This document shows, piece by piece, positions 8,532 to 29,841 of a DNA stretch of 30,472 bases (the first letter of the stretch is position 1; each line of letters starts with the position of its first letter). Position numbers and translations under genes: made by a program. Location of the stretch: positions 1 through 30,472 of IMG/VR virus record IMGVR_UViG_3300050821_001459. One strand, written 5' to 3'. Under the pieces are notes generated by a model. The model did not search any database and was not told where the DNA came from. It saw only the letters and a list, made by a program, of their open reading frames with translations. Source of the DNA: a virus.

Positions 8532-10739
8532 ATGCAGACGGAGACTAGCGACCGCAAGGTAATACCCGCAGGAGTCTTCTTCAAGACTATATTCGGGTCA
8601 GCGAGAGGATACGTCTGCATTGCGATTAAGAAGAGGGAATTCAGAGAGGTCTTTTTTACCTACCCAGATCAGCTACAGGAGATGCACGACTATGTGGAAC
8701 GTACAAAATACTCCGGGAACGTATACTTTTGCCCCCAACTACTTGCCGAGCCACGCAGGGTTAAGGCTAATGTTACTGCAACGACATGCGCATGGGCAGA
8801 CCTGGACACTTGTCATCCTCGAGTACTACTGGTACGACCCACTGTCGCGCTCGAGACGAGCCCTAACCGCTATCAGGCGTTTTGGGTCTTCGAGGATAGC
8901 CAGGACCCTACCGACTCGGAGGACTTGGCTCGTCGCATTGCATACAAACACGCGGACGACGGAGCCGACAGAAGCGGTTGGGATCTCACACAGCTGCTCC
9001 GCGTGCCCGGAACACGGAACTTCAAGTATGGTGAGGGTGCATCTGCCCCTGAGGTAACAGTCGTAGAGCACAACGAAGTCCGTTATCGCCTGAGCGATTT
9101 CCACGAGTACCCTGTAGCTGAGGGGTACGAGTATACAGCAATACCTTTTCCGCAGCTAACAATCGAAGACGGCATCACAATCCTAGAGCGTTACAGCTTC
9201 AGACTCAGTGGCGCAGCACATACGTTGTTCCACCAAGTAGCAGACGAAGGAGACAGAAGTCAACAACTGTTCAGACTAGAAATGACATGTGCCGAAGCTG
9301 GCATGTCACCCGAAGACACGTTCCAGGTAGCCAGAGATGCAGCATGTAACAAGTGGCAAGACCAGCCAGGCCTACTCTGGCGTGACGTTTGTAGAGCCTT
9401 CGCAGTACATAAGCAGAACGAAGAAGCTGGCCGAATAACGGAACAAGATGGGCCAGAGCTAGTTACCGATCAGGAAAGACAAGACATCGAAGGCAATCCC
9501 TGCTTCATAGAAAGGTACATAGCATGGGCATCTACGCTGGGCGATGCTGCAGTACAATACCATCAAGCGGGTGCCTTTATTGCCCTTTCGGCGCTGCTCG
9601 CTGGGTCTATAGTACTCCCGACGTCATTCGGCCCTATAATTCCCAATCTGTGGTTGATGGTCTTGGCCAATACAACATTGAGCCGCAAGTCAACAGCAAT
9701 GAACATAGTGATGGGTCTGATTGAGGAAATAGACGAATCTCTACTTATGGCTACAGACGGAAGCATAGAAGGGTTCGCGAGTGCACTTGCGTCCAGGCCA
9801 GACAAGGTATCCATATTCTTCCGCGACGAATTTACAGGACTCTTGGAGTCAATGACCAAGAAGGACTACATGGCTGGTATGCCAGAGTTCTTCACCAACT
9901 TGTACGATGGAAGGAGTCAACTACGACGCCTACGCAAGGAAGAGATTAAGATCAAGAACCCACGCTTGATCATCTTCGCAGGTGGCATCAAGGATCGGAT
10001 GCAGAGCCTAGTCACCTTCGAACACGTAACCTCAGGGTTCCTACCTAGGTTTATCTTCGTCACAGCAGACACTGACCCAATGAAGGTTAGGCCACTAGGA
10101 CCACCTACAGAAGAGAACTGGGGAGCGCGAGACGTAATCAGGAACGAGCTTAGCGACCTATACGAACGATATCGATCGCAAGTACCCGTTGTCCTGAACG
10201 GCAAAGTCGTAGGAGTTACAGACAAGCACATCGAAGCCGCGATGTCGAAGGATGCCTGGAAGCGGTTCAACCGTATCGACCAGACACTCATGCAGGTAGG
10301 AATGGACAGTGGCGATCTTAAGAACGTACTTACACCACTGTATGCACGTCTTGGTTTTAGCATGCTAAAGGCAGCAGTATTGATTGCAGCGTCTAGGACG
10401 CAAGAAAGCACAGTCACTGTAGAAGAAGAGGATATAGTTAGAGCAGCCTACTACGGCCAATCATGGAGACGCTACGCTCACGATGTCGTGTCCAACATTG
10501 GCAAGGGTCCCATGGAGCATAAGATTGAACTAGTAGGCAACGCCATTCACAAGCGCGGGCGTGTTGCTAGGTCCGCTCTCATGCAACGGTACCATCTGCA
10601 GTCGCAGGAGATGACACTTATAGTTCGGACCCTAGAGGAACGAGGTCTGATCAATACTACGGTACACGGCAAGCAGCAAGTGTACCAGAGTATGCTTACC
10701 GAGGCAGAAACGACGCTGAAGGGAATACGTGTCAAGTGA
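8532..10739 (+). CDS. Primase-helicase (RepB-like AEP primase + SF3/DUF3987-like helicase)
   Basis: 735 residues from ATG 8532 behind GGAAGGAG. The N-terminal domain has WADLDT (Asp90, Asp92), PNRYQAFW and LRVPGTRNFKY, which are the metal-binding and substrate motifs of archaeo-eukaryotic-type primases of the RepB/D5 sort. The C-terminal half is a helicase with Walker A-like ANTTLSRKST (379-388), where the usual Gly before Lys is Arg. Walker B is SIFFRDE (427-433), and sensor-like strands (RLIIFAGG, RFIFVTAD) follow. The last 80 residues look like a winged helix. It should unwind and prime at the phage fork, working with the PolA-type polymerase at 17235. Confidence 0.85.
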   Translation: MQTETSDRKVIPAGVFFKTIFGSARGYVCIAIKKREFREVFFTYPDQLQEMHDYVERTKYSGNVYFCPQLLAEPRRVKANVTATTCAWADLDTCHPRVLLVRPTVALETSPNRYQAFWVFEDSQDPTDSEDLARRIAYKHADDGADRSGWDLTQLLRVPGTRNFKYGEGASAPEVTVVEHNEVRYRLSDFHEYPVAEGYEYTAIPFPQLTIEDGITILERYSFRLSGAAHTLFHQVADEGDRSQQLFRLEMTCAEAGMSPEDTFQVARDAACNKWQDQPGLLWRDVCRAFAVHKQNEEAGRITEQDGPELVTDQERQDIEGNPCFIERYIAWASTLGDAAVQYHQAGAFIALSALLAGSIVLPTSFGPIIPNLWLMVLANTTLSRKSTAMNIVMGLIEEIDESLLMATDGSIEGFASALASRPDKVSIFFRDEFTGLLESMTKKDYMAGMPEFFTNLYDGRSQLRRLRKEEIKIKNPRLIIFAGGIKDRMQSLVTFEHVTSGFLPRFIFVTADTDPMKVRPLGPPTEENWGARDVIRNELSDLYERYRSQVPVVLNGKVVGVTDKHIEAAMSKDAWKRFNRIDQTLMQVGMDSGDLKNVLTPLYARLGFSMLKAAVLIAASRTQESTVTVEEEDIVRAAYYGQSWRRYAHDVVSNIGKGPMEHKIELVGNAIHKRGRVARSALMQRYHLQSQEMTLIVRTLEERGLINTTVHGKQQVYQSMLTEAETTLKGIRVK

Positions 10740-11563
10740 TGGCAACACCTACTACCTACTCAGACCAGTCGAAGTATATGTCCGAATCTGAGTTCGCGAC
10801 TCACCTAGCACAGAGGAGGCTAGAGTTGCGACAGGAACACGAGTCAGACGGCGTCGCAATCGTCAGTGGCGGCCTAGACAGCATCACAACTGTCTACTAC
10901 CTTGTCAAGCATCTCGGTCTCCATCCTCATATGGTCTCGTTCGATTACGGTCAGCGTCACAAGACAGAATTGAATTACGCCCTGTGGAATGCCGAGCAAC
11001 TGGGGCTGCGGTGGAGCCTGATCGATCTGTCAAGCATCACCGAGCTGATCGGTAACTCAGCTCTCACGCACGGCGCAGATGTCCCAGAGGGACACTACGC
11101 AGAAGACAACATGGCCATCACCGTCGTTCCCAACCGGAACATGATGATGATCAGTATCGCAACTGCAATCGCAGTCAACTACAAGTACACGTACGTAGCT
11201 GCTGGTATGCATGCAGGCGATCGTGCACAGTACCCAGACTGTCGCTCAGAGTTCATGGCTTCGATCTGGCAGACCCTTATGCTAGGCAACGAAGGCTTCA
11301 TCTCACGCGACTTCGATCTGCTCATTCCGTTCCAGGACAAGAGCAAGAACGACATAGCCCGCTGGGCCTACGAACTACAAGTTCCAGTCCATATGACCTA
11401 CTCATGCTACAAGGGCGGCGACATCCATTGTGGCAGATGCGCCACTTGCGTAGAAAGGCTTGAGGCGATTAACTCCGTAGGAGAGCCTGACTGGGACCAG
11501 ACACGATATATGGACAGAGTATACTGGCGTACGGTCGTAGACGACTGGAATGCCACCCACTAG
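10736..11563 (+). CDS. queC: 7-cyano-7-deazaguanine (preQ0) synthase QueC
   Basis: 275 residues; GTG 10736 overlaps the stop of the primase, and ATG 10739 is equally possible. The PP-loop SGGLDS at 44-49 binds ATP. Conserved blocks SFDYGQRHKTEL and VPNRN follow. Zinc is held by Cys224, Cys232, Cys235 and Cys238 (CGRCATC). The family turns 7-carboxy-7-deazaguanine (from QueE) into preQ0 using ATP and ammonia. It opens the seven-gene-plus deazaguanine island and is in one frame-coupled run with DpdA. The N-terminal 35 residues are an extra lead relative to typical QueC. The call is firm. Confidence 0.95.
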   Translation: MMATPTTYSDQSKYMSESEFATHLAQRRLELRQEHESDGVAIVSGGLDSITTVYYLVKHLGLHPHMVSFDYGQRHKTELNYALWNAEQLGLRWSLIDLSSITELIGNSALTHGADVPEGHYAEDNMAITVVPNRNMMMISIATAIAVNYKYTYVAAGMHAGDRAQYPDCRSEFMASIWQTLMLGNEGFISRDFDLLIPFQDKSKNDIARWAYELQVPVHMTYSCYKGGDIHCGRCATCVERLEAINSVGEPDWDQTRYMDRVYWRTVVDDWNATH

Positions 11564-11580
11564 AACTACAAGGCGGATAC

Positions 11581-12465
11581 ATGGCGGAAATTTTTCGTAC
11601 GGGCTACGTTGGCGGAGCGGTGCCCGAAGCAATAGACTGGATGGTCGAACAGTCAGAGGGCGCCAAGACCATCTGTGTTCCGTTCGCTGGCATCGGCCGC
11701 TCGATTGTAGCTATGGCACGGCCCGACACGACCATCGAGTCGTTCGATACTCAGCACTACACGAAGTGCATCTTCGAGGGCGTCTTCAGAGCCAAGGAAG
11801 CAGAGACCAACGTCGACGGTATTCACTACCGTAAGGGTTGGGCGTTCGAGAACAGGCCATACAAGAACCTGGACGATCGCTGTGCGGGCTTTATGGACTG
11901 GGTTGCTCAAGAGGGAACGCTTTACGACAAGGCGTGTCTTGGATCAGCCATAACCAGAAGTACGCTCATGGCTCGTATGATGCACTGGAAGTCGAACGTA
12001 GAGCAGTTCTACAACAGGTTCCAGAAGCAATTCGAGTACAACAAGGACTGGCTTAATCAACCAGGTAAGTTCGTCCACCACGAAGACAACTTCTTCAACT
12101 GGAGCGTCGCTACCGATCTTATAACCGAAACCGGAGTAGGATTTTCATACGACTTCATCGAGATCGACCCTCCCAAGGTAGTCAACTACAGTGACACCTA
12201 CTCGCTCAGATTCGAAGGCTTCAACCAAATCCTAACACAAGGCGTAGCAGCAAAACTCCCCAAGTGGAACAGACGTAACGCCATGGGGTACATGAGAAAG
12301 GCCCTAGAGACTCCAGCACCTAAGGTTGTCTTCATGTACGTGAGCGGTGTCTTTCCTCCGTACGAAGACGTCAAGAAGATGCTAGCAACTACAGGTACGA
12401 TCGAAGAGGAACGTGAGTTCTTCCACCAAGGCAGGACCGACTACGGACTAGTGATAGCAAGATGA
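11581..12465 (+). CDS. Divergent DNA methyltransferase-like protein (paralog B)
   Basis: 294 residues from ATG 11581. Motif I is VPFAGIGR (33-40), an acidic residue follows the next strand (ESFDTQ, Asp56), and motif IV is EIDPPK (194-199). It shares AGFxDWV, DKACLG, GKF/GKW...NFF, RRN and EDVKK blocks with the protein at 5784-6665, so the two are paralogs. The missing aromatic in DPPK sets both apart from normal DPPY/NPPY enzymes. It sits between QueC and the DUF6884-like protein, so a role in tailoring or guarding the modified DNA is plausible. Ordinary adenine methylation against restriction is the alternative. Confidence 0.6.
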   Translation: MAEIFRTGYVGGAVPEAIDWMVEQSEGAKTICVPFAGIGRSIVAMARPDTTIESFDTQHYTKCIFEGVFRAKEAETNVDGIHYRKGWAFENRPYKNLDDRCAGFMDWVAQEGTLYDKACLGSAITRSTLMARMMHWKSNVEQFYNRFQKQFEYNKDWLNQPGKFVHHEDNFFNWSVATDLITETGVGFSYDFIEIDPPKVVNYSDTYSLRFEGFNQILTQGVAAKLPKWNRRNAMGYMRKALETPAPKVVFMYVSGVFPPYEDVKKMLATTGTIEEEREFFHQGRTDYGLVIAR

Positions 12466-13022
12466 CTTACACACTGGCGATCATTCCCTGTACTGGTGTG
12501 AAGGACCCCTACATGGAAGAGGGTCCAGCACAAGAAATTTGGGTCGGAGCACACTTCCAGTACACGCTCATTTACGTAGAGACGTTCTTCGACAAGGTAC
12601 TGGTTATGTCGTACAAGTACGGACTGATCAGTCCTACCGACACTATTCAGTCCTACGACATCGACATGCGCGTAGCCAAGCCGCGTGAACACATCAGATG
12701 GTGGTACTTGCTCAAGGCACAAATTGACAAACTTGCAGACGAGGATCCGCCAGCACTAGTTGGACTCTTCACTGGCAACTTCGAGAGAGACCGTGTAGTT
12801 AGAGAATTTGTCAAGCACGGAGTAGACCAGCTTATCGTTCCCTGGGAAGGCAAAGGTATAGGCTTGCGCCAGCAGGCAGTCTTTGATGCCGAGCCTCCGT
12901 TCGATCCAGAGAAGGTAAAAAGAGGCGAGTACAAGGTCGAGTTGAACCCTACAGGATCAGCAACAGCTAACCGCTACCTACCGCCGCCAACGAAGATCGA
13001 GGAGCCAATCGAGTGGGAGTAA
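12462..13022 (+). CDS. DUF6884/YaaA-like protein in the deazaguanine island
   Basis: 186 residues, ATGA overlap with the methyltransferase-like gene. The N-terminal strand LAIIPCTGVKDPY carries Pro-Cys, Lys14 and Pro-Tyr. Next come a helix, the strand VLVMSYKYGLISP (47-58) and SYDIDM. This Rossmann-like pattern (PC...K, then S-x-K/Y-Y-G-L-x-x-P, then YD) is that of DUF6884/YaaA-type proteins. The Pro-Cys-x3-Lys-x-Pro-Tyr start also resembles the PC-x3-KPY motif of archaeosine synthase, with one inserted residue. The C-terminus is disordered and ends in KIEEPIEWE. Membership of the operon suggests a step in base insertion or tailoring; the reaction is unknown. Confidence 0.55.
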   Translation: MTYTLAIIPCTGVKDPYMEEGPAQEIWVGAHFQYTLIYVETFFDKVLVMSYKYGLISPTDTIQSYDIDMRVAKPREHIRWWYLLKAQIDKLADEDPPALVGLFTGNFERDRVVREFVKHGVDQLIVPWEGKGIGLRQQAVFDAEPPFDPEKVKRGEYKVELNPTGSATANRYLPPPTKIEEPIEWE

Positions 13023-13235
13023 GAGTTCCCGTGATACCAGGGAGTCTCAAGCCAACAGTTACACCTACAAAGGCACCTAGGATACCGTCCAATCACGACT
13101 CACTACACAACTTCAGTATCTTCAAGTACTGCTGGTGTATGTGCCCTAAGTGCTGGTTTCCAGTGCCAGTCTCCAGCGTAGGAATACTGGGAAGCTGCAT
13201 CTGCAGAGAGTGCCCATGTAGGAGCCAATCGAATG
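13000..13235 (+). repeat. Near-perfect 16-base direct repeat of a ribosome site and start codon
   Basis: AGGAGCCAATCGAGTG at 13000-13015 and AGGAGCCAATCGAATG at 13220-13235 differ at one base and lie 220 bases apart. Each comprises the Shine-Dalgarno and start codon of the gene that follows (13013 and 13233). The repeat frames the small cysteine-rich ORF, which could have entered by a short-homology duplication or insertion. Confidence 0.75.
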
Positions 13236-13249
13236 ACGTACAGTATTAG
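13013..13249 (+). CDS. Small cysteine-rich (zinc-ribbon-like) protein
   Basis: 78 residues from GTG 13013, eight bases after AGGAG. The N-terminal third is basic and Pro-rich. The second half holds eight cysteines in two clusters, CWCMCPKC (40-47) and CICRECPC (62-69), about 15 residues apart, matching a zinc ribbon or a double metal site. It overlaps the genes on both sides and fills the gap before QueD. It may bind nucleic acid or a partner enzyme of the pathway. No family is recognised, and its ribosome site duplicates that of queD. Confidence 0.55.
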   Translation: MGVRVPVIPGSLKPTVTPTKAPRIPSNHDSLHNFSIFKYCWCMCPKCWFPVPVSSVGILGSCICRECPCRSQSNDVQY

Positions 13250-13640
13250 CAAGGAATTCTCGTTCTCGGCAGCGCACCGCCTATCAGGACTATATCCAGG
13301 TCACCCGTGCGGGCGAGTACACGGACACAACTACACTGTCAAAGTCGCACTCACAGGACCTCTCAGTGAAGTAGGGTTCGTTCGAGACTATGGCCTGCTA
13401 AGTCCACTTAAGGCATATCTCGATGAGGAACTAGACCACCGCTGGCTCGGAAAGGGTATTCTCTTCGACCCCCAGCAAGGAACTCTACCCGACCAGATTC
13501 AGCCAGTGTTCGACTGGAACCCGACAGCTGAAAACATGGCAGAGCACCTCTACCGCTGGTGCAAGGGAATGTGGCCAGAAGTAGCTGGCGTAGGTGTTAG
13601 CGAGACGCCCAAAACCTGGGCCTGGTACGAAGGATTCTAG
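13233..13640 (+). CDS. queD: 6-carboxy-5,6,7,8-tetrahydropterin synthase QueD
   Basis: 135 residues, with AGGAG eight bases before ATG 13233. The T-fold signatures are intact: SAAHRL (His15), Cys26 as nucleophile, HGHNY (His30, His32) completing the zinc triad, ELDHRWL (Asp68, His69), and VSETPKTWA with Glu124 anchoring the pterin. The enzyme converts 7,8-dihydroneopterin triphosphate from FolE into 6-carboxytetrahydropterin, the QueE substrate. Normal length for the family, with no missing key residue. Situated between two small Cys-rich ORFs in the deazaguanine run. Confidence 0.95.
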   Translation: MTYSISKEFSFSAAHRLSGLYPGHPCGRVHGHNYTVKVALTGPLSEVGFVRDYGLLSPLKAYLDEELDHRWLGKGILFDPQQGTLPDQIQPVFDWNPTAENMAEHLYRWCKGMWPEVAGVGVSETPKTWAWYEGF

Positions 13641-13757
13641 ATGGAAGACGTAACGTTCGGATGCACGTGTGAAAAGGGTAACGACGCTTCACATGTTACC
13701 TCTACAGTCGAGGACTGTGTCGTACACGGAACAAGGTTCGGAGGCCCAGTATGTTGA
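13641..13757 (+). CDS. Tiny Cys/His-rich protein
   Basis: A 38-residue ORF starts at ATG 13641 directly after the queD stop, with AAGGA six bases upstream inside queD, and overlaps queE by seven bases. It reads FGCTCEKG (Cys8, Cys10), a His at 18, then EDCVVHG (Cys26, His29) and a final Cys38. The spacing suggests a small metal-binding knuckle. The ribosome site and tight fit between two enzymes support it; the size keeps confidence moderate. Confidence 0.45.
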   Translation: MEDVTFGCTCEKGNDASHVTSTVEDCVVHGTRFGGPVC

Positions 13758-14485
13758 GGCTAGTAGAACACTACGTCAGCATGCAAGGCGAGTGCGATCG
13801 CACCGGCACTCCGACGCAGTTCATACGCTTCGCAGGATGCAATCTCAAGTGCACTGGCTGGCCATGCGACACACCGTTCGCTATCTTCCCTAGGCAGTAC
13901 CTGAAGAAGCAGTATCTACTTCCCGTTCACAATCCAGGCAGTGCCTCCCTCATGGGAGACATTATAGACAAGTATGACGAGACAGGTGCAGGGAACATCT
14001 GCCTTACTGGAGGCGAACCGCTACTCCAGCTCAACGATGACCTCGACGACCTAATCACGAACGCTCTACATCTACAAAGCAGAATTAAGTCCATCGAGAT
14101 GTTCAGCAACGGAACGCTTAGATACACGCACACCATGTTGGAGAAGTGCTCAATCCGAATGGACTGGAAGCTGCCAGGGTCGCACGAAGACCAGTCTGGT
14201 CCAAACTGGGACGTTCGTATCGAGAACTACTGCAACATGGGTGAGTGGAACCATCACACGATCAAGTTCACTATCAAGGACCAGTTCGATTTCGAAACAG
14301 CCATGTCTATATTCGACAAGTACGGCCTAGAGACATGGCCAGGCACGGTCTACGCAGGGCCAGTCTGGGACTCCGAGTACACCGCAGCAGATATTAGTGC
14401 AGGTATCCTAGCCAACAAGCTACCCTGGCGCCTCAACGTTCAGACGCATAACTATATCTGGCCAGCCCAGGAGCGTGAGCGGTGA
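13751..14485 (+). CDS. queE: 7-carboxy-7-deazaguanine synthase QueE (radical SAM)
   Basis: 244 residues from ATG 13751. The N-terminal VEHYVSMQGE, FIRFAGCNLKC and WPCDTPFA blocks are those of QueE. The Fe-S cysteines are 30, 34 and 39, a CX3CX4C spacing in place of the usual CX3CX2C because of an inserted Gly-Trp-Pro. TGGEPLLQ (86-93) is the AdoMet-binding GGE motif. It rearranges 6-carboxytetrahydropterin into 7-carboxy-7-deazaguanine for QueC. Its end overlaps folE by four bases. Function is well supported; the cluster spacing is a lineage variation or a real oddity. Confidence 0.92.
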   Translation: MLRLVEHYVSMQGECDRTGTPTQFIRFAGCNLKCTGWPCDTPFAIFPRQYLKKQYLLPVHNPGSASLMGDIIDKYDETGAGNICLTGGEPLLQLNDDLDDLITNALHLQSRIKSIEMFSNGTLRYTHTMLEKCSIRMDWKLPGSHEDQSGPNWDVRIENYCNMGEWNHHTIKFTIKDQFDFETAMSIFDKYGLETWPGTVYAGPVWDSEYTAADISAGILANKLPWRLNVQTHNYIWPAQERER

Positions 14486-15066
14486 AGCCGATGAGTGATC
14501 AGTCCATAGCTATCCTTCTCGAGCAAGTAAGCAACGAGAAGCTAGCGGAAGAACTCCTTGTCCGATGCGCGGGCCTCGATCCGACAAATCCACAGGAAGC
14601 GAGAACTGCGCAGAGATACGTTCATGCACTAGTAGAGTTGACAACGCCAGAGCCGTTCGAGTTCACGACGTTCAAGGCAGAGTCGGACGAGATGGTCACT
14701 ATGTACAACATTCCGTTCAGCTCGCTGTGTCGCCATCATATTCTGCCTTTTACTGGTGTGGCGCACGTAGCCTACGTACCAAAGTTGGAATGGGCTGGCG
14801 CCTCTAAGCTAGCCCGAACAGTACAGTGGTACTCCAGGTTCCTGCAAACACAAGAGGAACTGACGAAGGGAATAGCCGACAAGATCTACACCAATCTCGA
14901 CCCGGCGGGCGTAGGCGTCATTCTAGAAGCAGAGCACTTCTGTATGACACTTCGAGGCGCACGAACGCATGGCACTAGAATGCGCACCGCATATATGTGG
15001 GGCGTGTTCGCAGATCATGACAGGACAGCCAAAGCAGAATTCCTGTCGGGCATTAACGGGAGATAG
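14482..15066 (+). CDS. folE: GTP cyclohydrolase I FolE
   Basis: 194 residues; GTG 14482 sits in a GTGA overlap, with ATG 14491 as a second choice. Zinc ligands are Cys83 and a His of SLCRHH, with Cys154 in AEHFCM. ASKLARTVQWYSRF and QTQEELTKGIADKI are family blocks, and GARTHGTRMRT ends the core. It opens GTP to dihydroneopterin triphosphate, the first step of the deazaguanine route, so the phage does not depend on host folate flux for it. Length is normal for the bacterial type. Confidence 0.95.
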   Translation: MKPMSDQSIAILLEQVSNEKLAEELLVRCAGLDPTNPQEARTAQRYVHALVELTTPEPFEFTTFKAESDEMVTMYNIPFSSLCRHHILPFTGVAHVAYVPKLEWAGASKLARTVQWYSRFLQTQEELTKGIADKIYTNLDPAGVGVILEAEHFCMTLRGARTHGTRMRTAYMWGVFADHDRTAKAEFLSGINGR

Positions 15067-15067
15067 C

Positions 15068-15436
15068 ATGGACATGAATAGCAGAGCCACACAGGCTCTA
15101 GCAGACAGTGACATCTGGTTCCCAAACTGTCGTGGAGACATAGCTCACCACCTTATCTCGCTTGCAGGCGAGGTAGGCGAACTCTGCAATGTCTACAAGA
15201 AGTGGGATCGTTCAGACGAAGTCAGTATTCCAGACGTAACTCTGATGAAGATGAAGGACGAAATAGTCGACGTACTCGTGTACCTGTACAACCTAGCTGG
15301 CGAGCTCAACATGGATGTGGAGGCGCAGTACGATGACAAGCGACTCAGAAACCACTACAGGTTCGCCCCAGTCGGAGTCCCGCTTGCCGGAACCGGAGCT
15401 GACGTCGGAGCAACTAGAGCTCATCCGAGTGGCTGA
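15068..15436 (+). CDS. MazG-like nucleotide pyrophosphohydrolase
   Basis: 122 residues from ATG 15068 behind GGGAGA; the frame is open further left within folE but that part is shadow. The all-alpha NTP-PPase core shows AGEVGEL (Glu35, Glu38) and KDEIVDVLVYL (Glu65, Asp68), the ExxE and ExxD magnesium sites. Such enzymes hydrolyse (d)NTPs to monophosphates. In phages they may lower (p)ppGpp or reshape nucleotide pools. The last 30 residues overlap the next gene and look like low-complexity tail. Its place in the que run may be about nucleotide supply. Confidence 0.8.
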   Translation: MDMNSRATQALADSDIWFPNCRGDIAHHLISLAGEVGELCNVYKKWDRSDEVSIPDVTLMKMKDEIVDVLVYLYNLAGELNMDVEAQYDDKRLRNHYRFAPVGVPLAGTGADVGATRAHPSG

Positions 15437-15695
15437 CGCAGCCTTCGACCAGATGTGCCAGGCTCGTCACGATACAGGCAGAACAAAGTACGGCATCTTT
15501 ACGTTCCTGGAGATGCCAACACTCGAAATGGCCCTAGAGGAGCTAGCTGACCTAGCTAACTACGCCAGGTACACATTCATCAAAGTAGTACTACTTCGTC
15601 AGAGCATTAAGCAAGTGCAAGACCAAGCCCTCGGCGCTGTCGATGGGTTCTTTACTACCCAAGACATTCTAGGTGTCAAGAAGGACATTGAATGA
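15333..15695 (+). CDS. Second MazG-like protein
   Basis: 120 residues from ATG 15333, with GGAGG ten bases upstream inside the first MazG gene, so the two overlap by about 104 bases in different frames. GTG 15430 would remove most of the overlap but has no good ribosome site. The N-terminal 30 residues are acidic and disordered. The core has KYGIFTFLEMPTLEMALEEL with ELADLANYARYTF, an ExxxD-type helix pair like phage MazG-like proteins. The full metal-binding set is not evident, so activity is uncertain. It ends in an ATGA overlap with the transglycosylase gene. Confidence 0.6.
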   Translation: MTSDSETTTGSPQSESRLPEPELTSEQLELIRVADAAFDQMCQARHDTGRTKYGIFTFLEMPTLEMALEELADLANYARYTFIKVVLLRQSIKQVQDQALGAVDGFFTTQDILGVKKDIE

Positions 15696-16462
15696 AGATA
15701 GCTCTCATTACACCCGCAAGTCAACTGCACCACTGTATGAACCGCAAGTTCCAAATGCTCATTCCAGGATTCGAACACAACCTGGAATACAAGAGGTACT
15801 TCAAGGTGTTCGGAACAAACAACGGTAACTTCGTCATGCTAGACAACGGCGCCTTCGAGGGCAGCCAGCTCAACGATCGCGACCTGCTAGACATGGGGCG
15901 AGAGTACAAAGTCGACGAGCTCTGCATCCCTGACACTATGGGCGATAGCGTAGGCACGCTAGAACAGCTCGGCAGATTCGCCGCTGTGCTTAGGCATCCC
16001 TCGAGAGGTGATACTTGGAAGCCCCCAAGGCTTATGGCAATCGTTCAGGGAGAGACCGAAGATGAGCTTATAAGTTGCATCGACGCCTTCGCAGCAGACC
16101 GGTTCACGAACGTCATCGACACTATCGGAATCCCCAAACACCTGCCCGCAACTACAGGCTGGGACGATATTAGGATTCGACTAGCCAAGTGGACTCAAAC
16201 CAAGTACCCGCACAAGTGGGATCTTCACTTCCTAGGTTTCGTAGCTCCAGGCGAAACCATGGGAGCAGCTCAGCTAGGAGTCCGAAGTATGGACACGTCC
16301 GCACCGTTCGTTTGCACTGCAGACAACGTTAGCATCTCGCTGCATCGAGTCCCGCCACGGCAACGCTGGTTCGCCAACCTGGGACCAGAATACTTCCATC
16401 CCCACCTAGTGAGGCAGAACATCGACGACCTCGATCTCTGGGCAGTTAAGGAAGATGACTAG
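15692..16462 (+). CDS. dpdA: DpdA-like DNA guanine transglycosylase
   Basis: 256 residues from ATG 15692. It is a compact TGT-like barrel: VMLDNGAFEG (Asp51) and CIPDTMGD (Asp81) bind the base, AIVQG (118-120) is the TGT VQG strand, and TIGIP and LHFLGF are barrel strands. SMDTSAPF supplies Asp201, the likely nucleophile (counterpart of the TGT FDxxxPTR Asp). Phage DpdA enzymes exchange guanine in DNA for preQ0 or relatives. The short length recalls the DpdA2 type of actinophages rather than full tRNA enzymes, and no tRNA-binding zinc site is seen. With FolE, QueD, QueE and QueC upstream, dPreQ0 in DNA is predicted. Confidence 0.85.
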   Translation: MKIALITPASQLHHCMNRKFQMLIPGFEHNLEYKRYFKVFGTNNGNFVMLDNGAFEGSQLNDRDLLDMGREYKVDELCIPDTMGDSVGTLEQLGRFAAVLRHPSRGDTWKPPRLMAIVQGETEDELISCIDAFAADRFTNVIDTIGIPKHLPATTGWDDIRIRLAKWTQTKYPHKWDLHFLGFVAPGETMGAAQLGVRSMDTSAPFVCTADNVSISLHRVPPRQRWFANLGPEYFHPHLVRQNIDDLDLWAVKEDD

Positions 16463-16994: not shown

Positions 16995-17290
16995 TGGCAC
17001 TCTTCGACAAAGTCACATGTGGCATACATGGAGTGATGAAGTACCGAGCTGCCATGAAATGGTGGGAGTGCGTTGGCTTTGACGGCGAGGGCTGCTGTAT
17101 CCTTACAGACGAGGATATATATCTTCTCGTACGCGGTAGACCATTCGACCCTACGTCAGAAATTCTACCCGTTTACTACGAGCACAGCATAGACGGCGAA
17201 CTTAGTCGAATTCTCGTGAAGGGTACAGCTGACAGTGACATCGTCAGAAACGCTTGGGGTGGTACGGAAGCACCCCCAAGCGAAGTGTGA
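16994..17290 (+). CDS. Hypothetical protein
   Basis: 98 residues from ATG 16994 in a one-base TGATG overlap. The N-terminus (ALFDKVTCGIHGVMKYRAAM) has Cys and His pairs, with WECVGFDGEGCC next, suggesting a small metal-binding alpha/beta unit. The remainder is strand-rich (DIYLLVRGRPFD, EILPVYYEH). It overlaps the polymerase start by about 56 bases. No family recognised. Confidence 0.5.
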   Translation: MALFDKVTCGIHGVMKYRAAMKWWECVGFDGEGCCILTDEDIYLLVRGRPFDPTSEILPVYYEHSIDGELSRILVKGTADSDIVRNAWGGTEAPPSEV

Positions 17291-19634
17291 AGAATGTCCT
17301 TTGTACGAAGATGGTCAGTTCGTTCCCAGTAACGGACCAGCAAAGGCCAAGCTCGCCATCGTAGGCGAAGCACCTGGTGTGAATGAAGCCAAATACGGTA
17401 GGCCGTTCGTTGGCGAGTCTGGCCAACTGCTTAATTCGGTCCTTAAGCACTACGACATCAGCAGAAAAGAGGTATTCCTTACCAATGCAGCCCTTTGCAG
17501 AGATTCCAGCGGCGCCACCCCAACAGCTAGTGCACTCCAAGCGTGTAGGCCCCGTCTCATGGGCGAGCTCCGAGAAAGGGAGCCACAAGATATTGTCGCT
17601 CTCGGTAACTCTGCCGCGCAGTCGATACTTGGCACTAAGACTGGAATCACCTCGCTCCGTGTGGGTCAGGGGCATACCAATGAGGACGAGCTACCTAACG
17701 TGCGTGTTCTACCGACCTTCCACCCCGCCGCCTGTCTTCGGCAACCAGACTTCTTCCCGTCTCTAGTCACTGACTTCGGCAAGCTCAAAGGCTTCACTGG
17801 TATCTGGTACGAGCCTAAGTGGAAAGCATACGAGGCCCCAGAAGAGGCACTGGCCGCACTAGCTGAGCTGCAACAGATACAGGGGCCTGTTGTAGTTGAC
17901 ATCGAGTCAGGCATTGAGAAGGACGTGTCTTTCGAACATCCTAACCGACATACCCTTCTCTGTGTCGGACTCGGCTACCAGCGTGGCAAGATAGTTGTCA
18001 TAGGCGAAACAGCACTGAGAGACGAACGAGTCATTGAAGCACTTGCACTGTACCTAACAACGCACCCAATGAAGGGACAGAACCTCAAGTTCGACAACAA
18101 GGGCCTCTGGGCTAAGCTCCACGTTGCCCTGACGGTCTACGCAGACACCATGCTCAAGTCCTATTGTCGAGACGAGCGTCAGAGAGTTCACAGCCTTGGA
18201 TACCTAGGCATAGAAATGCTAGGTACTCCAGACTGGAAACACGCACTCGACAAGTACAAGAAGCCCAAGGACAGCTACGCAGTTATTCCTCGACCAATAC
18301 TGTACCAGTACAACGCATGGGACGTGCACGTCACAGACCTAGTTGACGAAGTCCTAACCAAAGAACTCGAGACCCATCCAGAACTAGTCAAGCTTCACGA
18401 GTTCCTTTGCCGCGCATCTGACCAGCTAATGTTCCCGGAGCTCAACGGCATAGGTGTCGACCTGAAGTACAACGAAGAACTCATGATCCAATACCAAGCC
18501 AGTCTAGCTATCCTAGAAGAACGAATAGCACAAGCCATACCGGACCCCGAATGGACAAACTTTAATCCGCGCTCGTGGCAGCAAGTTCAGAAGGTAGTCA
18601 AGGGCACCTTTGGCCTGAAGCTACCTATGAAGATGAACACGAAAAGAGAGTACGTTGAGACTACGGACGTCACTGCACTCACGGCGCTATTGGAAAGAAA
18701 CCTTGGCGAACCTTCTGAAGAGTTCTTCAGGCGCATGCTGGAGCATCGAAAGGAAGCCAAGCTCTACGGAACTTACGTCAAGGGACTACGAAAGCGAGTA
18801 TACCGAGGCCGAGTCTATCCTACTTTCCTACTCCATGGTACCACGACGGGACGGCTCAGTTGTCGTAACCCTAACCTTCAAAACATCCCCCGAGATAGCA
18901 CAATGCGTAAGCAGTTTGTACCAAGCAAACCGGAAAACGTGTTCCTTGAGGGTGACTACGGCCAGAACGAAGGACGAGTTCTCTGCTGGCTAGCACAGGA
19001 CGAATACCTACGAGGCCTGTTCAACGATCCAACGCGTGACATCTTCGATGAGCTAACCCCAGTCCTGTACGGCGATTGTTCAGGACTAAGTCCAGCCGAA
19101 ATGAAGGAGCTGAGAATTCGTGTCAAGGCCTACTTTTACGGACTTGCTTACGGACGAGAAGCGCGAAGCATTGCGCTCGAGTATGGTATCCCTATGTCAG
19201 AAGCTGAGCGAGGCATGCGAGAGTTTTTCAAGGTCATTCCAGCAACTGTCGCTTTTCGTGAGCGTACTCGGCGACAAGTTCTCGAAGGAAACGACCTCAT
19301 CACAGCCTTCGGACGGCACAGAAGATTCTACCTAATTACCAACAGCAACAGAAAGGACGTACTCAATGAGGCTCTTGCATTCCTGCCTCAGTCAACTGCC
19401 AGTGATATCTGTCTTGATGCATTCGTGCATACTCGTCCACGCCTTAAAGGCATTGGGTTCATCAGGAACATCGTCCACGACTCGCTCCTAGCCGAGACGC
19501 ATCCAGATAACCTCATGGAGGTAATGACAATTATGAACGAGGAAATGCTCGCAGCAGCTGCGCGAGTCGTAGGCGACTACGTCAGATTCAAAGTCGACTT
19601 CAAGTCCGGCCCAAGCTGGGGAGAGCTGTCGTAG
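17235..19634 (+). CDS. Uracil-DNA glycosylase / 3'-5' exonuclease / family A DNA polymerase fusion
   Basis: 799 residues from GTG 17235; GTG 17259 is a weaker option. Residues 18-185 are a family-4 UDG: Fe-S Cys18, Cys21, Cys88 and Cys104, motif GEAPGVNEAKYGRPFVG and HPAACLR. Residues 218-370 are a DEDDy exonuclease: DIES (Asp222, Glu224), KFDN (Asp287), YNAWD (Tyr359, Asp363). The polymerase follows: GDYGQNEGR (Asp574), Lys631 with Tyr635 in KAYFYGLAYG, and VHDS (Asp749). Tyr stands where E. coli Pol I has Phe762, and the second motif C acid is Ser. It is the phage replicase. A similar UDG-polymerase fusion is known in phage SPO1. Confidence 0.92.
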   Translation: MTSSETLGVVRKHPQAKCEECPLYEDGQFVPSNGPAKAKLAIVGEAPGVNEAKYGRPFVGESGQLLNSVLKHYDISRKEVFLTNAALCRDSSGATPTASALQACRPRLMGELREREPQDIVALGNSAAQSILGTKTGITSLRVGQGHTNEDELPNVRVLPTFHPAACLRQPDFFPSLVTDFGKLKGFTGIWYEPKWKAYEAPEEALAALAELQQIQGPVVVDIESGIEKDVSFEHPNRHTLLCVGLGYQRGKIVVIGETALRDERVIEALALYLTTHPMKGQNLKFDNKGLWAKLHVALTVYADTMLKSYCRDERQRVHSLGYLGIEMLGTPDWKHALDKYKKPKDSYAVIPRPILYQYNAWDVHVTDLVDEVLTKELETHPELVKLHEFLCRASDQLMFPELNGIGVDLKYNEELMIQYQASLAILEERIAQAIPDPEWTNFNPRSWQQVQKVVKGTFGLKLPMKMNTKREYVETTDVTALTALLERNLGEPSEEFFRRMLEHRKEAKLYGTYVKGLRKRVYRGRVYPTFLLHGTTTGRLSCRNPNLQNIPRDSTMRKQFVPSKPENVFLEGDYGQNEGRVLCWLAQDEYLRGLFNDPTRDIFDELTPVLYGDCSGLSPAEMKELRIRVKAYFYGLAYGREARSIALEYGIPMSEAERGMREFFKVIPATVAFRERTRRQVLEGNDLITAFGRHRRFYLITNSNRKDVLNEALAFLPQSTASDICLDAFVHTRPRLKGIGFIRNIVHDSLLAETHPDNLMEVMTIMNEEMLAAAARVVGDYVRFKVDFKSGPSWGELS

Positions 19635-23070: not shown

Positions 23071-23778
23071 CTAGCCTTCCAGATACTTGACAAGAAGCTG
23101 TGCAGCCGCTAGAGCTTCTGCCTTTGTCGGACCCGCAGGCTGTGGCTTCGGTGTCGGTAGGGGGGCGCCGTACCGGTACTGCCCGAAGTCCCTACGCGTA
23201 GGAACGTCGAGATCAGCCTCGTTGCCCAGCTCGGTAATTGCCATCTGCCGAAGCTGTGCGCGTGAGTCCCACTGGTTGCCAGACCACGCTACGGTCTGAA
23301 AGCCCCAGGTAATAAGCTTGGCATCGAACAGGCGCTTGATGAGCCAGTACCCACCATAGCCGCCAGAGTTGTCTCCGAGCTCGGCACGAACGACTTGCCA
23401 GTACTTACCAGCCTCACCCAGCTTGGCTAGAGAGTTCTCTGGTGTGTCTGGAAGACCCGGCGCGTAGTCTGGAATGTCGAAGTCCGCTGCGAAGAACACT
23501 GGCCTGTCGGGAACGCCTATTGCTTTGGCTTGTTCCTTGAACAGTGCAACATCGATCTGAGCCTGGTTCGCTCCTCCCAGTACCTGGTTTGCGCCGTACT
23601 CGAAGAGGTTGAAGATATCGATACCGTTGGCTCCGAGGAGCTCGGCTTCTGCCTTGGTCAGGTTCTTCGGAGGACTGCCTTGACCGAAGTACCTTCCTAC
23701 TGCAGTGACTCCAGCTGCTTTGAGCATGGCCAGCGAGGGATGCACCACTGAGTAGTCGATGACTAGAATTTTGCCCAT
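23071..23778 (-). CDS. DUF1906-type (Rv2525c-like) glycoside hydrolase, endolysin
   Basis: 235 residues on the minus strand, ATG at 23778 with GGAGAGAAGG upstream. Residues 1-205 are a TIM-barrel of the DUF1906/GH25-like group: VIDYSVVHPSL (Asp8), AVGRYFGQ, FNLFEYGANQ, FFAADFDIPDY and TELGNEADLDVP. A Pro-rich linker follows and ends in a short helical C-terminus (TKAEALAAAQLLVKYLEG) that may bind the wall. These enzymes attack glycan strands of actinobacterial peptidoglycan. It is probably the phage endolysin; the next gene encodes a membrane coiled-coil protein that fits a holin-like partner. Confidence 0.75.
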   Translation of the reverse strand: MGKILVIDYSVVHPSLAMLKAAGVTAVGRYFGQGSPPKNLTKAEAELLGANGIDIFNLFEYGANQVLGGANQAQIDVALFKEQAKAIGVPDRPVFFAADFDIPDYAPGLPDTPENSLAKLGEAGKYWQVVRAELGDNSGGYGGYWLIKRLFDAKLITWGFQTVAWSGNQWDSRAQLRQMAITELGNEADLDVPTRRDFGQYRYGAPLPTPKPQPAGPTKAEALAAAQLLVKYLEG

Positions 23779-23792
23779 GTCCGCCTTCTCTC

Positions 23793-24506
23793 CTACTTCA
23801 GGACGAGTGCTATAATGACGTTGACCACTATGACAACTAGTGATATTGCAACGCCCATAAGTACGAGTCGGTTGTTCGTCTCGCGCTGCTCGTCTTCACG
23901 CTTATCTCTGGTACCTTCCTTACCTCCTTCCAGACCTGCAGTCTTACTCTCTAGTGCACGAATACGCTCTTCCTGCTGACTGTCCTGTATCTTAAGTCCG
24001 TCAGCAATTACAGCCAGATTGCTCTCGAACTTGTCAATTAGTGCTGCGCGCCATGCATCTGTCTCTTGTCGAGGCACTACCGTCCCAGACAGCGCCGCCA
24101 GCTGCTCACGAGCGACACTAAGCCCATCGAGAACTGTCTGGTGTGCAGATGCGTATTCGGCCTTAGTCAAGAACCCAGCAATTAGGTCTCCTTGCTGAGC
24201 CCTGAACTCGTTAACGGCTGAAAACTTTGACTCGTTAGCCTTGTCGGCCTTCTCAGAAGCTTCCTTGGCAGCAGCTAGTGCAGCACTAAGCGCCTCTGCC
24301 GAAGCATCAAACCTGGTGAACGTCAGTTCCTTCAGACTACTTATTCGTAGCTCTAGAAATTCCTGCATCGTTGACAGCTCACGACGAAGCTGCTGCGTAG
24401 TGAGTGCAGTAGGGTCTGGTACCGGAACCCAGCCACCGCCAGGTGTAGCCGACAGGCCAACTGCGAAAGGCTGCTGCTGCTGCTGCTGCAGAGGATCTTC
24501 TGCCAC
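23793..24506 (-). CDS. Coiled-coil protein with C-terminal TM helix (XhlA-like)
   Basis: 237 residues, GTG start 24506, three bases from the previous stop. The N-terminus has a run of six Gln (from six CTG repeats on the plus strand). The middle is mostly helical, with LRRELSTMQEFLELRISSLK and a long Ala/Glu/Lys-rich coiled coil. Residues about 212-236 (LVLMGVAISLVVIVVNVIIALV) are a single membrane helix. This coiled coil plus terminal helix resembles XhlA-type holin accessory proteins, and it sits beside the endolysin. A tail-associated role cannot be excluded. Confidence 0.55.
   Translation of the reverse strand: MAEDPLQQQQQQPFAVGLSATPGGGWVPVPDPTALTTQQLRRELSTMQEFLELRISSLKELTFTRFDASAEALSAALAAAKEASEKADKANESKFSAVNEFRAQQGDLIAGFLTKAEYASAHQTVLDGLSVAREQLAALSGTVVPRQETDAWRAALIDKFESNLAVIADGLKIQDSQQEERIRALESKTAGLEGGKEGTRDKREDEQRETNNRLVLMGVAISLVVIVVNVIIALVLK
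24471..24488 (+). repeat. (CTG)6 triplet repeat
   Basis: Six perfect CTG units encode the poly-Gln stretch near the N-terminus of the minus-strand coiled-coil protein. Repeat length could vary between isolates by slippage. Confidence 0.85.
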
Positions 24507-24509
24507 TAC

Positions 24510-24797
24510 CTACTCACCTGCCCAGAGCCCACTAAGTGCATTATCGAAGTTGAACGTCGTGCCTTGCGTAAGAGTTCCCTTGTACACACCGGCAATGGTG
24601 TTCATGTACGAGAACATCGTAATCACGTTCGCTGCATCTCCAGAGGAGAAGCCTAGAGCCTCCAAGCCAGCAAGACCAAGGTCTGTGATGCCCTCCTGGT
24701 CGTCGAGTATCTGCTGCATAAGATTTCGCATTGCTAGTGCATTCGTAGTAAGCGTCTGATTGATTCCTGCAACTGTTCCTTGGTCACCTATAGCCAT
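24510..24797 (-). CDS. Small hypothetical tail-region protein
   Basis: 95 residues, ATG at 24797 (MAIGDQG) with GAGGAGAG upstream; an upstream in-frame start would overlap the fibre gene by 153 bases in shadow sequence and was rejected. The protein is helical in the first half (NALAMRNLMQQILDDQE) and Gly/Ala/Asn-rich afterward. No membrane segment or motif. It lies between the fibre and the lysis genes, so a minor virion role is possible. Confidence 0.6.
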   Translation of the reverse strand: MAIGDQGTVAGINQTLTTNALAMRNLMQQILDDQEGITDLGLAGLEALGFSSGDAANVITMFSYMNTIAGVYKGTLTQGTTFNFDNALSGLWAGE

Positions 24798-24807
24798 GGG
24801 ACTCTCC

Positions 24808-27636
24808 TCATACGGGCATGATGTCCATCCAGGAGCCAGCCTGAATAGTAAAGGTGTCAGTAGCGACACTAGTAGACGTCTGAATGGTAAACAGGGCACT
24901 TGCAGAGAACGTTGCGAAAATCTCAAATTCGAGCTTAACGCTGTTACCATTAACTAGTGGCGCACCTGCATAGCTACCCAGCGAACCAGAGTTCCAGTAG
25001 GGGATAGGCTGAGTAGCAGCACCATCCGTATTCGTGAACTCAGCGTCCACGCTGGCTAGGCTTACTGCACCTCCGTGAATAGCAAAGGTAGGAGTGCCAG
25101 CACTCTGGTTGCCGACGTAGTTTATACAACCCCTGATCCGATAAGACAGAGCGGCCAGAGTAGCGGAGAGGCCCGTAATTACAGCGGGCGTAGTCGAGTT
25201 GATTGTCTGCGTGCCCGAAGTCCACAGGTGCAGTACCTCAATGGAGTACAGGTTGCCATCAGGAGCAGTTTCAGCTAGATGCTGCAGACCGCCGTTTATC
25301 GCAAGGGTGGTAACATGTGTTACGTTGCTGAACCCAATGTTGTCTGCATTGTGGTTGATAGAGGCGCCGAAGGTTAGGTCGTACGCCTTAAACCCAGCAG
25401 GGTAACCTTGACTAGTAATAGGGTCAATTCCTGAAGCCGAGGCCATAGAGAGTGCCAGGCCCACAGAACCTGAAGTAGCGTAGACCAAGTTTAGGCGGCC
25501 ATTCCCACCTGCAAGTGCAGTATGGATGCCGCTGCCATCGCCGCCAGCGCCACCGCCATAGTTGTTACCAGCTAGGCCAACAGCACCGTTAGCACCGCCG
25601 TTGCCGCCGTAACCGCCAATCCAGAAGCCGGGACCTCCCTTGCCTCCCTGACCTCCGACTGCACCAACAGCAGCACCGCCTGGTGCGCCTGAGCCGCTAA
25701 TTCCTGCGCCGCCGCCGCCTCCACCGCCGCCAGTGGCAGAGCCGTGGCCGTAGCCGCCCTTGCCACCATTATAGTGCCAGGCGTTAGTACTCCCGGTACC
25801 CGCAAGGCCTGGAACGCCAGATACGTTTGCTTGTCCACCGCCATGCGCAGTAACGGTAACGGTGTCACCAGCAAAGGTACAGTTACCGCCATTTCCTGTT
25901 CCACCAGTAGGAACAGAGTACGCATAGAGGTTTGTAGGCGTCACAGCTACTGAAGGATCGCCTGCAGACTCACCACCGCCTGCTCCGCAGTTGTAGTTAC
26001 TATTTATTCCACCGCCAGCAGCCTGAGCAAACACACTTACCGATGTAACACCTGCAGGACATGTCCAGTTGCCAGCACCTGACAGAGTTACAAACGTCTG
26101 TCCGGCTTGGCCGTACATTAGCAGAGGGCCAGGATTCAAAGACATAGACTGAGCGTTTATACCAGTACCATCAACAATGCCACCGACAATAGTACCTGCA
26201 ATAATTTGCAGTGCTGTAACAGTCCCAGCCTGTATAAGCGAGCCAGGCACCTGAGGGAAGCACAAGATTGCGCACGCATAGGTCGTGCCGCCTAGGTCAT
26301 TAGACCCAACCGTAGGAGCACCAGAAACTGCATTAAGGTCGGTCAGTGTTTGGACGGTAGTTATCTGCGTCCACGTATTGACAGGAATAGTGAATTCCTG
26401 ATTGGACGACGACGATACGCCTCCAGTAGATAGCAACCAGTCAAAGCCTAGGACAACGTCACCAGTAGTAGTATACACCCAGGCCGAGACTGCATACTCC
26501 TGGTTCAGTATAACAGGGAAGGCCTGATTATCCTCGTTCATGTAACCAGCAGTAACGCCGTTGTTAACATACTGGCCAGCGTACGAGAATGGAATTCCAG
26601 TAGGCGGAGTGACAACCGCAAACGTGCCATTGATTGCGGACCACCCTGTTGCGTCCCCGCCTAGGAAGTACGGGTTAGCATTAAGCAAGCCCAAGTAGCC
26701 CAGCATAGATGCCGTGACAGCATGAGGTGCGATTGCACCTGTACCTACTTGGTAAGGCACCCAACCGTTTGCAGGAGCCTCTTGGTAGTTCGCAAGCACC
26801 TGCGCAGCTGACAGCGCAGTCGAGTACACTGCAACTTCAGCCAAGTTGCCGTTTAGGTAATCACCACTGTACGTGACGCCGTAGCCCATTCCAATGCCAC
26901 TTGCCGACCCAGCAGTCATTGGCCCAGCAAACGGCGTGCTCCCTATAGGCTCGCCGTTCTGGTACAGCCAGAGGGTCGAGCCATCCCACACTGCAGCAAT
27001 GTAAGTCCAGCCTGTTCCGGGTATTACGTCACCCGTAACCGAGACGGAAGTAGATCCAGTACCTACGGTAATCCTAGGAGTAGTTCCGCCATTGAGAAAT
27101 AGTTCAAATCCGTTATGGTCTGTATCGGAACGTGAATTAGCAACTAGCTTCGAGTTGCCAGCTTGGGTCAGACCGTTTAGGTCAACCCAAGCCTCAACAC
27201 TAAAGGCACTAAACGGACCAGGATCGTAGGTAGTGGTTATTGTAGAACTGGTCCCGTTGAACGCAGCAGTGGTATCATTTAGTACAGGGCCAGATTGTCC
27301 GTACACAACATTAGTCGCGACACCAGTATGAGTAAAGCCTGAAGCATCTAGCGCAACAGTCGACCCGAGAGTATCTGCTAGCTTCCACCAAGCTATCGGA
27401 GCTAGCCCTCCAATTGTCGTATCATACCCTATGCCAGTCCACTGACTAGCTACGTTTCCTTCCGAAGTGTTGTACCAAATATCGCCAATGATAGGATTCA
27501 GCGGAGCAGTTGCAGCGTAGGTAATAGACGACCCAAAGGGCTGAGCAGGAGGACCGACCGCAAGCGCCTTAGTTGCTTTCTGCAATGCTTTAATATCACG
27601 GATGATGTCGTACGTTCGCGCCTGCGGATACTTCAT
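24808..27636 (-). CDS. Tail fibre with LamG-like, carbohydrate-binding-like and Gly-rich domains
   Basis: 942 residues, ATG at 27636. The N-terminus (about 1-40) is a short helical attachment region. Residues about 80-290 are a LamG/concanavalin-like fold (PIAWWKLADTLGSTVALDAS, FSVEAWVDL, NGNLAEVAVYSTAL). About 320-460 is a second beta-sandwich of carbohydrate-binding-module type (FLGGDATGWS, YAVSAWVYTT). Residues about 540-712 are extremely Gly-rich (GGGGGGGGAG with Gly-x-Gly repeats), like the polyglycine-II bundles of some phage adhesins. The last 200 residues are a beta-rich receptor-type head. It probably binds host surface sugars. Confidence 0.75.
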   Translation of the reverse strand: MKYPQARTYDIIRDIKALQKATKALAVGPPAQPFGSSITYAATAPLNPIIGDIWYNTSEGNVASQWTGIGYDTTIGGLAPIAWWKLADTLGSTVALDASGFTHTGVATNVVYGQSGPVLNDTTAAFNGTSSTITTTYDPGPFSAFSVEAWVDLNGLTQAGNSKLVANSRSDTDHNGFELFLNGGTTPRITVGTGSTSVSVTGDVIPGTGWTYIAAVWDGSTLWLYQNGEPIGSTPFAGPMTAGSASGIGMGYGVTYSGDYLNGNLAEVAVYSTALSAAQVLANYQEAPANGWVPYQVGTGAIAPHAVTASMLGYLGLLNANPYFLGGDATGWSAINGTFAVVTPPTGIPFSYAGQYVNNGVTAGYMNEDNQAFPVILNQEYAVSAWVYTTTGDVVLGFDWLLSTGGVSSSSNQEFTIPVNTWTQITTVQTLTDLNAVSGAPTVGSNDLGGTTYACAILCFPQVPGSLIQAGTVTALQIIAGTIVGGIVDGTGINAQSMSLNPGPLLMYGQAGQTFVTLSGAGNWTCPAGVTSVSVFAQAAGGGINSNYNCGAGGGESAGDPSVAVTPTNLYAYSVPTGGTGNGGNCTFAGDTVTVTAHGGGQANVSGVPGLAGTGSTNAWHYNGGKGGYGHGSATGGGGGGGGAGISGSGAPGGAAVGAVGGQGGKGGPGFWIGGYGGNGGANGAVGLAGNNYGGGAGGDGSGIHTALAGGNGRLNLVYATSGSVGLALSMASASGIDPITSQGYPAGFKAYDLTFGASINHNADNIGFSNVTHVTTLAINGGLQHLAETAPDGNLYSIEVLHLWTSGTQTINSTTPAVITGLSATLAALSYRIRGCINYVGNQSAGTPTFAIHGGAVSLASVDAEFTNTDGAATQPIPYWNSGSLGSYAGAPLVNGNSVKLEFEIFATFSASALFTIQTSTSVATDTFTIQAGSWMDIMPV

Positions 27637-27639
27637 AAC

Positions 27640-28788: not shown

Positions 28789-28797
28789 GTCGCCACC

Positions 28798-29832: not shown

Positions 29833-29841
29833 AGCAGCCTC

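Follow-up and report, generated by a model that had tools for sequence, protein, structure and literature searches.

Several systems that replace guanine in phage DNA with 7-deazaguanine bases have been described. In the Campylobacter phages CP220 and CPt10, 100% of the deoxyguanosine (dG) is replaced by 2'-deoxy-7-amido-7-deazaguanosine (dADG) (PMC8306585), and a 2019 listing gave the CP220-type Campylobacter phages as having the pathway without DpdA, the DNA guanine transglycosylase (PMC6884629). The rule that five genes alone (FolE, QueD, QueE, QueC and DpdA) give 2'-deoxy-7-cyano-7-deazaguanosine (dPreQ0, the free base being preQ0) comes from phages Rosebush and CAjan, and Enterobacteria phage 9g, which carries Gat-QueC, makes 2'-deoxyarchaeosine (dG+) (both PMC6884629). 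In bacteria, the DUF328 (PF03883) protein DpdC hydrolyses dPreQ0 to dADG (PMC12839542). Here we analyze an island of this kind at 10736-16462 of IMG/VR virus record IMGVR_UViG_3300050821_001459 (30,472 bases, classed linear), the whole of which is called the window. The window is probably a fragment of a larger genome, and little weight can be put on a gene being missing from it. An initial annotation, made from the letters alone, had located QueC, QueD, QueE, FolE and a 256-residue transglycosylase-like protein in the island, and its coordinates proved exact. The island is a real system of a known kind with variant gene content; its subtype is corrected below and it carries two extra genes, which encode a DUF6884 protein and a methyltransferase-like protein of 294 residues (MT294).

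The compact DpdA and its family

The 256-residue protein received no family name from Pfam, PHROGs or NCBIfam. The weak tblastn matches of this protein lay in Bacillus phages and in Weizmannia phage Youna2; a search from the Youna2 DpdA reached phages of Brevundimonas and Flavobacterium, among them one with a copy annotated DpdA. All of these copies adjoin preQ0 genes and most adjoin PolA. A five-sequence profile (A1) matched the bacterial DNA-guanine transglycosylase 7ui4 (E 0.0015) with the tRNA-guanine transglycosylases (TGTs) ranking lower. The structure model built from 65 sequences had a predicted local distance difference test score (pLDDT) of 92.0 and a predicted template modeling score (pTM) of 0.90. 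In Foldseek this model matched the archaeosine TGT (arcTGT) at E 7.1e-8 and 7ui4 at E 2.5e-6, and the VIA Z scores were tied (arcTGT 17.5, 7ui4 17.2 over 232 residues and TGT 17.0). As modeled, the protein is an enzyme of the TGT superfamily. Residues D51, D81, Q119 and D201 are invariant across the 65 family members, and profile alignment places D201 on the nucleophile region of 7ui4 and TGT, which agrees with the earlier choice of Asp201 as the likely nucleophile. The grouping with tRNA TGTs that the initial annotation had named as evidence against its reading was not seen by sequence: the Pfam TGT model does not match the window protein and matches only one of the 65 members (at 0.001), and the TGT zinc motif CxCxxC was not found after D201.

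Although the single window DpdA gave no confirmed relatives when used as query, a scan of viral contigs with the A1 alignment profile gave 80 loci (loci are given L numbers below). At least one preQ0 gene lies near the family DpdA in 74 of 84 loci, and 32 of the 84 have all four; these are minimum counts because some loci are cut short. A family profile built without the window protein scored that protein at 149 bits (E 5.5e-43, Z=100000), compared with 228 bits for CP220, 147 for Youna2 and 146 for phiST. The same profile gave 3.7 bits for the 9g DpdA, 3.2 bits (E over 100) for the DpdA2 of Vibrio phage nt-1 and no match to mycobacteriophage DpdA, which BLASTP from the window protein also failed to match. 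In the maximum-likelihood tree the window protein falls inside the CP220/phiST/immuto family, and a 100/100 split separates this family from six proteins of the 9g and mycobacteriophage types. The rows nearest to the window protein are L010-L013, although the finer placement is unsure as several branches are long. By these sequence relationships the window DpdA belongs to the family of CP220/CPt10, phiST and Flavobacterium phage immuto, which we take to be DpdA3. Cui et al. in 2023 reportedly gave that name to the CP220/phiST group and tied the group to complete replacement. A tblastn search from one family member returned 15 Campylobacter phage records.

The CP220/CPt10, phiST and immuto proteins share the invariant residues, are 256-266 residues long and, in most family members as in the window, have preQ0 genes near DpdA. 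However, the window DpdA is just 20-35% identical to members of the CP220/phiST family, its gene order is unlike that of CP220, and the window adds DUF6884, MT294 and a QueE with CX3CX4C. The 9g-, CAjan- and Rosebush-type systems likewise combine preQ0 enzymes with a transglycosylase, but their DpdA comes from another family. Bacterial Dpd systems (DpdA, DpdB, DpdC) have in common with the window a TGT-like insertase, although the bacterial 7ui4 chain has 436 residues rather than 256, and the window lacks their restriction genes. The initial annotation had likened the protein to the DpdA2 type of actinophages, for which its short length, its preQ0 neighbors and a QueC whose best matches come from Gordonia and Mycobacterium phages (at 40-46% identity) could be cited. 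This assignment is scarcely credible: DpdA2 was defined on phage nt-1 (PMC6884629), whose protein has 464 residues, and the profile scores, BLASTP and the tree all contradict it. Note that in the whole record of Cellulophaga phage phiST (L094), QueD, FolE and the compact DpdA are present with no match to QueC, and so the phiST DpdA may insert an intermediate earlier than preQ0.

Given the genes present, the fold and conserved residues of the protein, its family and its setting, we think it very probable that a 7-deazaguanine base is inserted into phage DNA in place of guanine by this CP220/phiST-family DpdA. Several results weigh against this. The fold and catalytic residues do not separate a DNA from a tRNA substrate (the tied VIA Z scores mean that fold alone cannot pick one), and a larger profile, A2, matched 7ui4 at just E 0.054. 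The Pfam DpdA model PF23859 did not match the window protein, but it was uninformative, as it matched no tested phage with a proven DpdA. Moreover, the link to full replacement through CP220 is that of one lineage, with many long branches between CP220 and the window. The tied scores would also suit a phage tRNA transglycosylase, with the pathway feeding host tRNA queuosine, and phages with preQ0 genes but without a recognized DpdA were once proposed to boost host queuosine (PMC6884629). We consider a tRNA role very unlikely given a protein of only 256 residues without the zinc motif, a family almost devoid of Pfam TGT matches and found within replication modules in phages with reportedly modified DNA, and the fact that no QueA, QueG or QueH-type gene was seen.

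preQ0 synthesis genes and their setting

The four enzymes leading from guanosine triphosphate (GTP) to preQ0 are recognized by Pfam, PHROGs or NCBIfam, so the complete pathway claimed earlier does stand beside the compact DpdA. The claim of a single run of five genes needs qualification: all five are present, but the run holds four further genes (MT294, DUF6884, a MazG-like gene and a small conserved gene) and two gaps (13022-13233 and 13640-13751).

Features of the island and its flanks, with the evidence for each assignment
Feature	Position	Strand	Evidence
Primase-helicase	8532..10739	+	PHROG DNA primase 4.2e-93; directly upstream of island, replication-module context
QueC, 7-cyano-7-deazaguanine synthase (7-carboxy-7-deazaguanine, CDG, to 7-amido-7-deazaguanine, ADG, to preQ0)	10736..11563	+	PF06508 2.8e-53
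MT294, methyltransferase-like, FAG...DPPK motifs	11581..12465	+	Homologue in L112/L113
DUF6884 protein, candidate DpdC-like tailoring enzyme	12462..13022	+	PF21818 3.8e-14; PF03883 below cut-off; adjacency
QueD, 6-carboxy-tetrahydropterin synthase	13233..13640	+	PF01242 (PTPS) 1.4e-27; TIGR03367 3.8e-21, below cut-off
QueE, radical-SAM 7-carboxy-7-deazaguanine synthase	13751..14485	+	PHROG QueE 2e-26; TIGR03963 2.8e-28, below cut-off
FolE, GTP cyclohydrolase I	14482..15066	+	PF01227 9.3e-47; zinc residues present
MazG-like nucleotide pyrophosphohydrolase candidate	15068..15436	+	PF12643 0.0016 (below cut-off); PHROG MazG-like 2.5e-6
Small protein kept in closest relatives	~15315..15695	+	Found by phmmer in L010-L013, immediately upstream of DpdA in all
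Compact DpdA, CP220/phiST type, predicted DNA guanine transglycosylase	15692..16462	+	Fold, family profile, tree, context
Family A DNA polymerase (PolA)	17235..19634	+	PHROG DNA polymerase 6.1e-86; downstream, replication-module context

Alignment with known phage proteins found the catalytic residues that had been claimed for each enzyme. QueC, which scores 166.7 bits against TIGR00364 (cut-off 150.3), has SGGLDS and the zinc cysteines Cx8CxxCxxC, and at 275 residues it cannot be a Gat-QueC fusion. The C-x3-HGH motif is present in QueD and CxxH...C is kept in FolE. These two enzymes and QueE (for which TIGR03963 is the best NCBIfam model) all score below the NCBIfam cut-offs, which are strict and can be missed by divergent phage proteins. 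The radical-SAM cysteine motif of QueE is CX3CX4C (GCNLKCTGWPCDT) in place of CX3CX2C, a spacing that the window shares only with its closest relatives, the three loci L010, L012 and L013. In nine loci of other DpdA phages (L058, L055, L078, L080 and others) the motif is CX3CX7C, and in many large phages (L005, L072 and others) an insertion of about 40 residues separates the second cysteine of QueE from the third.

With the primase upstream and family A DNA polymerase downstream, the island lies within the replication module. The primase-helicase also neighbors the island in L010, L012, L013 and L112, as does PolA in Youna2, BSTP8, StAshley, immuto and L010-L013. The order primase-QueC-QueD-QueE-FolE-small gene-DpdA-PolA is identical in L010, L012 and L013 and nearly so in Youna2 (primase-QueC-QueD-QueE-FolE-DpdA-PolA); in the stretch of Bacillus phage BSTP8 that was read the order is QueD-QueE-FolE-DpdA-PolA. 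Unlike the window, Youna2 and BSTP8 have neither DUF6884 nor MT294, have H at the position of DpdA Q119 and have DpdA annotated as hypothetical. A near-identity DNA search with the island gave no match among phage records.

Relatives of MT294 were found solely in L112 and L113, two copies of one virus sequence (99.96% identical in the shared part); a single-sequence relative search with MT294 gave no confirmed relatives. The L112/L113 homologue is 45% identical to MT294 and again directly precedes DUF6884. The L112 protein matched the phage Dam-like family PF22555 at E 0.019 (14.7 bits against a cut-off of 27), whereas MT294 itself had no PF22555 match above the cut-off and otherwise no named relative. 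The segments PFAG, DTQ and DPPK, conserved between MT294 and its relatives, together with the one sub-cut-off Dam-like match, suggest that MT294 may be a methyltransferase. Its single-sequence structure prediction had a pLDDT of 37.

The start of the small conserved gene is uncertain, as the ATG at 15315 overlaps the MazG-like gene and a GTG near 15430 is possible. Genes of nucleotide-kinase-like or pyrophosphohydrolase type recur beside the compact DpdA of different phages (L003 2920-3483, L005 5225-5749, window 15068-15436 and L093 8819-9361). Elsewhere in the window, one protein (938-1747) combines LysM and transglycosylase domains, and an opposite-strand block (23071-30444) encodes endolysin-like, large laminin-G-like and minor tail proteins. 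No tRNA genes were found across the 30,472 bases.

The DUF6884 protein and the final base

The DUF6884 protein weakly resembles the DpdC family. Its match to PF03883 (DUF328/YaaA) is 7.1e-4 (19.6 bits against a cut-off of 29.6), and other DUF6884 members match at levels that are likewise below the cut-off (L061, 1e-4; L112, 1.1e-4; L119, 0.02). In a PDB search with a six-member DUF6884 profile, the second-ranked entry was YaaA 5caj, but its E of 0.34 is not significant.

DUF6884 loci were collected with an alignment query that included DpdA phages (the single window sequence gave no confirmed relatives) and hence the association was not sampled without bias and is given no probability. DUF6884 stands beside QueC or DpdA in at least three separate settings, involving two DpdA families. 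The order is MT294-DUF6884-QueC-QueE in L112 and FolE-DpdA-QueC-DUF6884-QueD-QueE in L119, where DpdA is of the 9g type, and in L118 a 50-residue DUF6884 fragment adjoins QueC. In Fusobacterium phage phiFN37 (L126, 2709-5018), genes for a ParB-like protein, DpdA, DUF6884 and the queuosine-precursor transporter YhhQ follow in that order; with no preQ0 synthesis genes nearby, this run suggests that preQ0 is salvaged from the host or the environment. The adjacency is not general, as many phages carry DUF6884 without an annotated preQ0 gene nearby, and DUF6884 was not found in CP220, CPt10, CAjan, 9g, nt-1, HVTV-1 or Dp-1. DUF6884 as the general cause of dADG is ruled out because CP220 and CPt10 lack it. 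The ArcS of nt-1 was also considered as a DUF6884 protein and rejected since it belongs to PF17884.

The initial annotation took dPreQ0 as the default product for want of QueF. QueF (PF14489) was indeed not found in the window or in two long relatives (53.0 and 51.6 kb), which excludes 2'-deoxy-7-aminomethyl-7-deazaguanosine (dPreQ1) as far as the fragment and these relatives show. The default itself is unsafe, because CP220, with a DpdA of this family, makes dADG and because a DUF6884 candidate is present. The two candidates for the final base, dPreQ0 and dADG, seem to us about equally likely. The first of these, plain dPreQ0 of the kind made by CAjan and Rosebush, would leave DUF6884 and MT294 to unrelated jobs and has close to an even chance: the window has the minimal set of FolE, QueD, QueE, QueC and DpdA, and no QueF, ArcS (PF17884) or YaaA-family gene in it scores above its cut-off. 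These absences are provisional in a fragment, and CAjan and Rosebush use a DpdA of another family than the window (9g- and Rosebush-type proteins were tested).

A final base of dADG or some other preQ0 derivative, with the DUF6884 protein acting in a DpdC-like manner and MT294 perhaps adding a mark such as adenine methylation, is a genuine possibility that falls somewhat short of even. The repeated, if sub-cut-off, matches to the family of DpdC itself and the weak 5caj match point this way, as do the loci in which DUF6884 adjoins QueC (L112, L119 and, with only a fragment, L118) or lies between DpdA and YhhQ (phiFN37). However, every PF03883 match is below the cut-off, CP220 and CPt10 have dADG with no DUF6884, PF03883 or PF17884 protein, and the close relatives L010 and L012 lack DUF6884. 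The many phages with DUF6884 away from preQ0 genes and the bias of the query toward DpdA phages also count against it. The tailoring role of DUF6884 is a hypothesis and should be read as a lead. We tentatively propose, with more doubt than belief, that in 7-deazaguanine phages the DUF6884 protein is the viral counterpart of DpdC, acting on the nitrile of DNA-borne preQ0, that the product of the island is a preQ0 derivative present at high occupancy and that MT294 adds a second modification.

Proposed mechanism and implications

In the scheme we envisage, the island would serve the lytic module of a tailed phage, with FolE, QueD, QueE and QueC turning GTP into preQ0. After replication, the compact DpdA would exchange guanine of the phage DNA for the 7-deazaguanine base: D201 would attack C1' of the deoxyribose to form a covalent intermediate, guanine would leave and preQ0 or ADG would enter, D51 being the putative acid/base. 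The DUF6884 protein may next act on the nitrile of the inserted preQ0. High occupancy rather than scattered marks would be expected by analogy with CP220, since this is the sole family member for which we found a reported level and all of its dG is replaced. In the modified DNA, sites that contain guanine would escape recognition by host restriction enzymes. Such shielding has been reported for other phages (PMC6884629), and by analogy restriction resistance is a reasonable inference here.

The analysis assigns an unannotated 256-residue protein, together with a large set from uncultivated viruses, to the DpdA family that CP220 ties to complete guanine replacement. The known phage pathways leave open the fate of DNA-borne preQ0 where QueF, ArcS and Gat-QueC are lacking, and DUF6884 is a candidate for that step.

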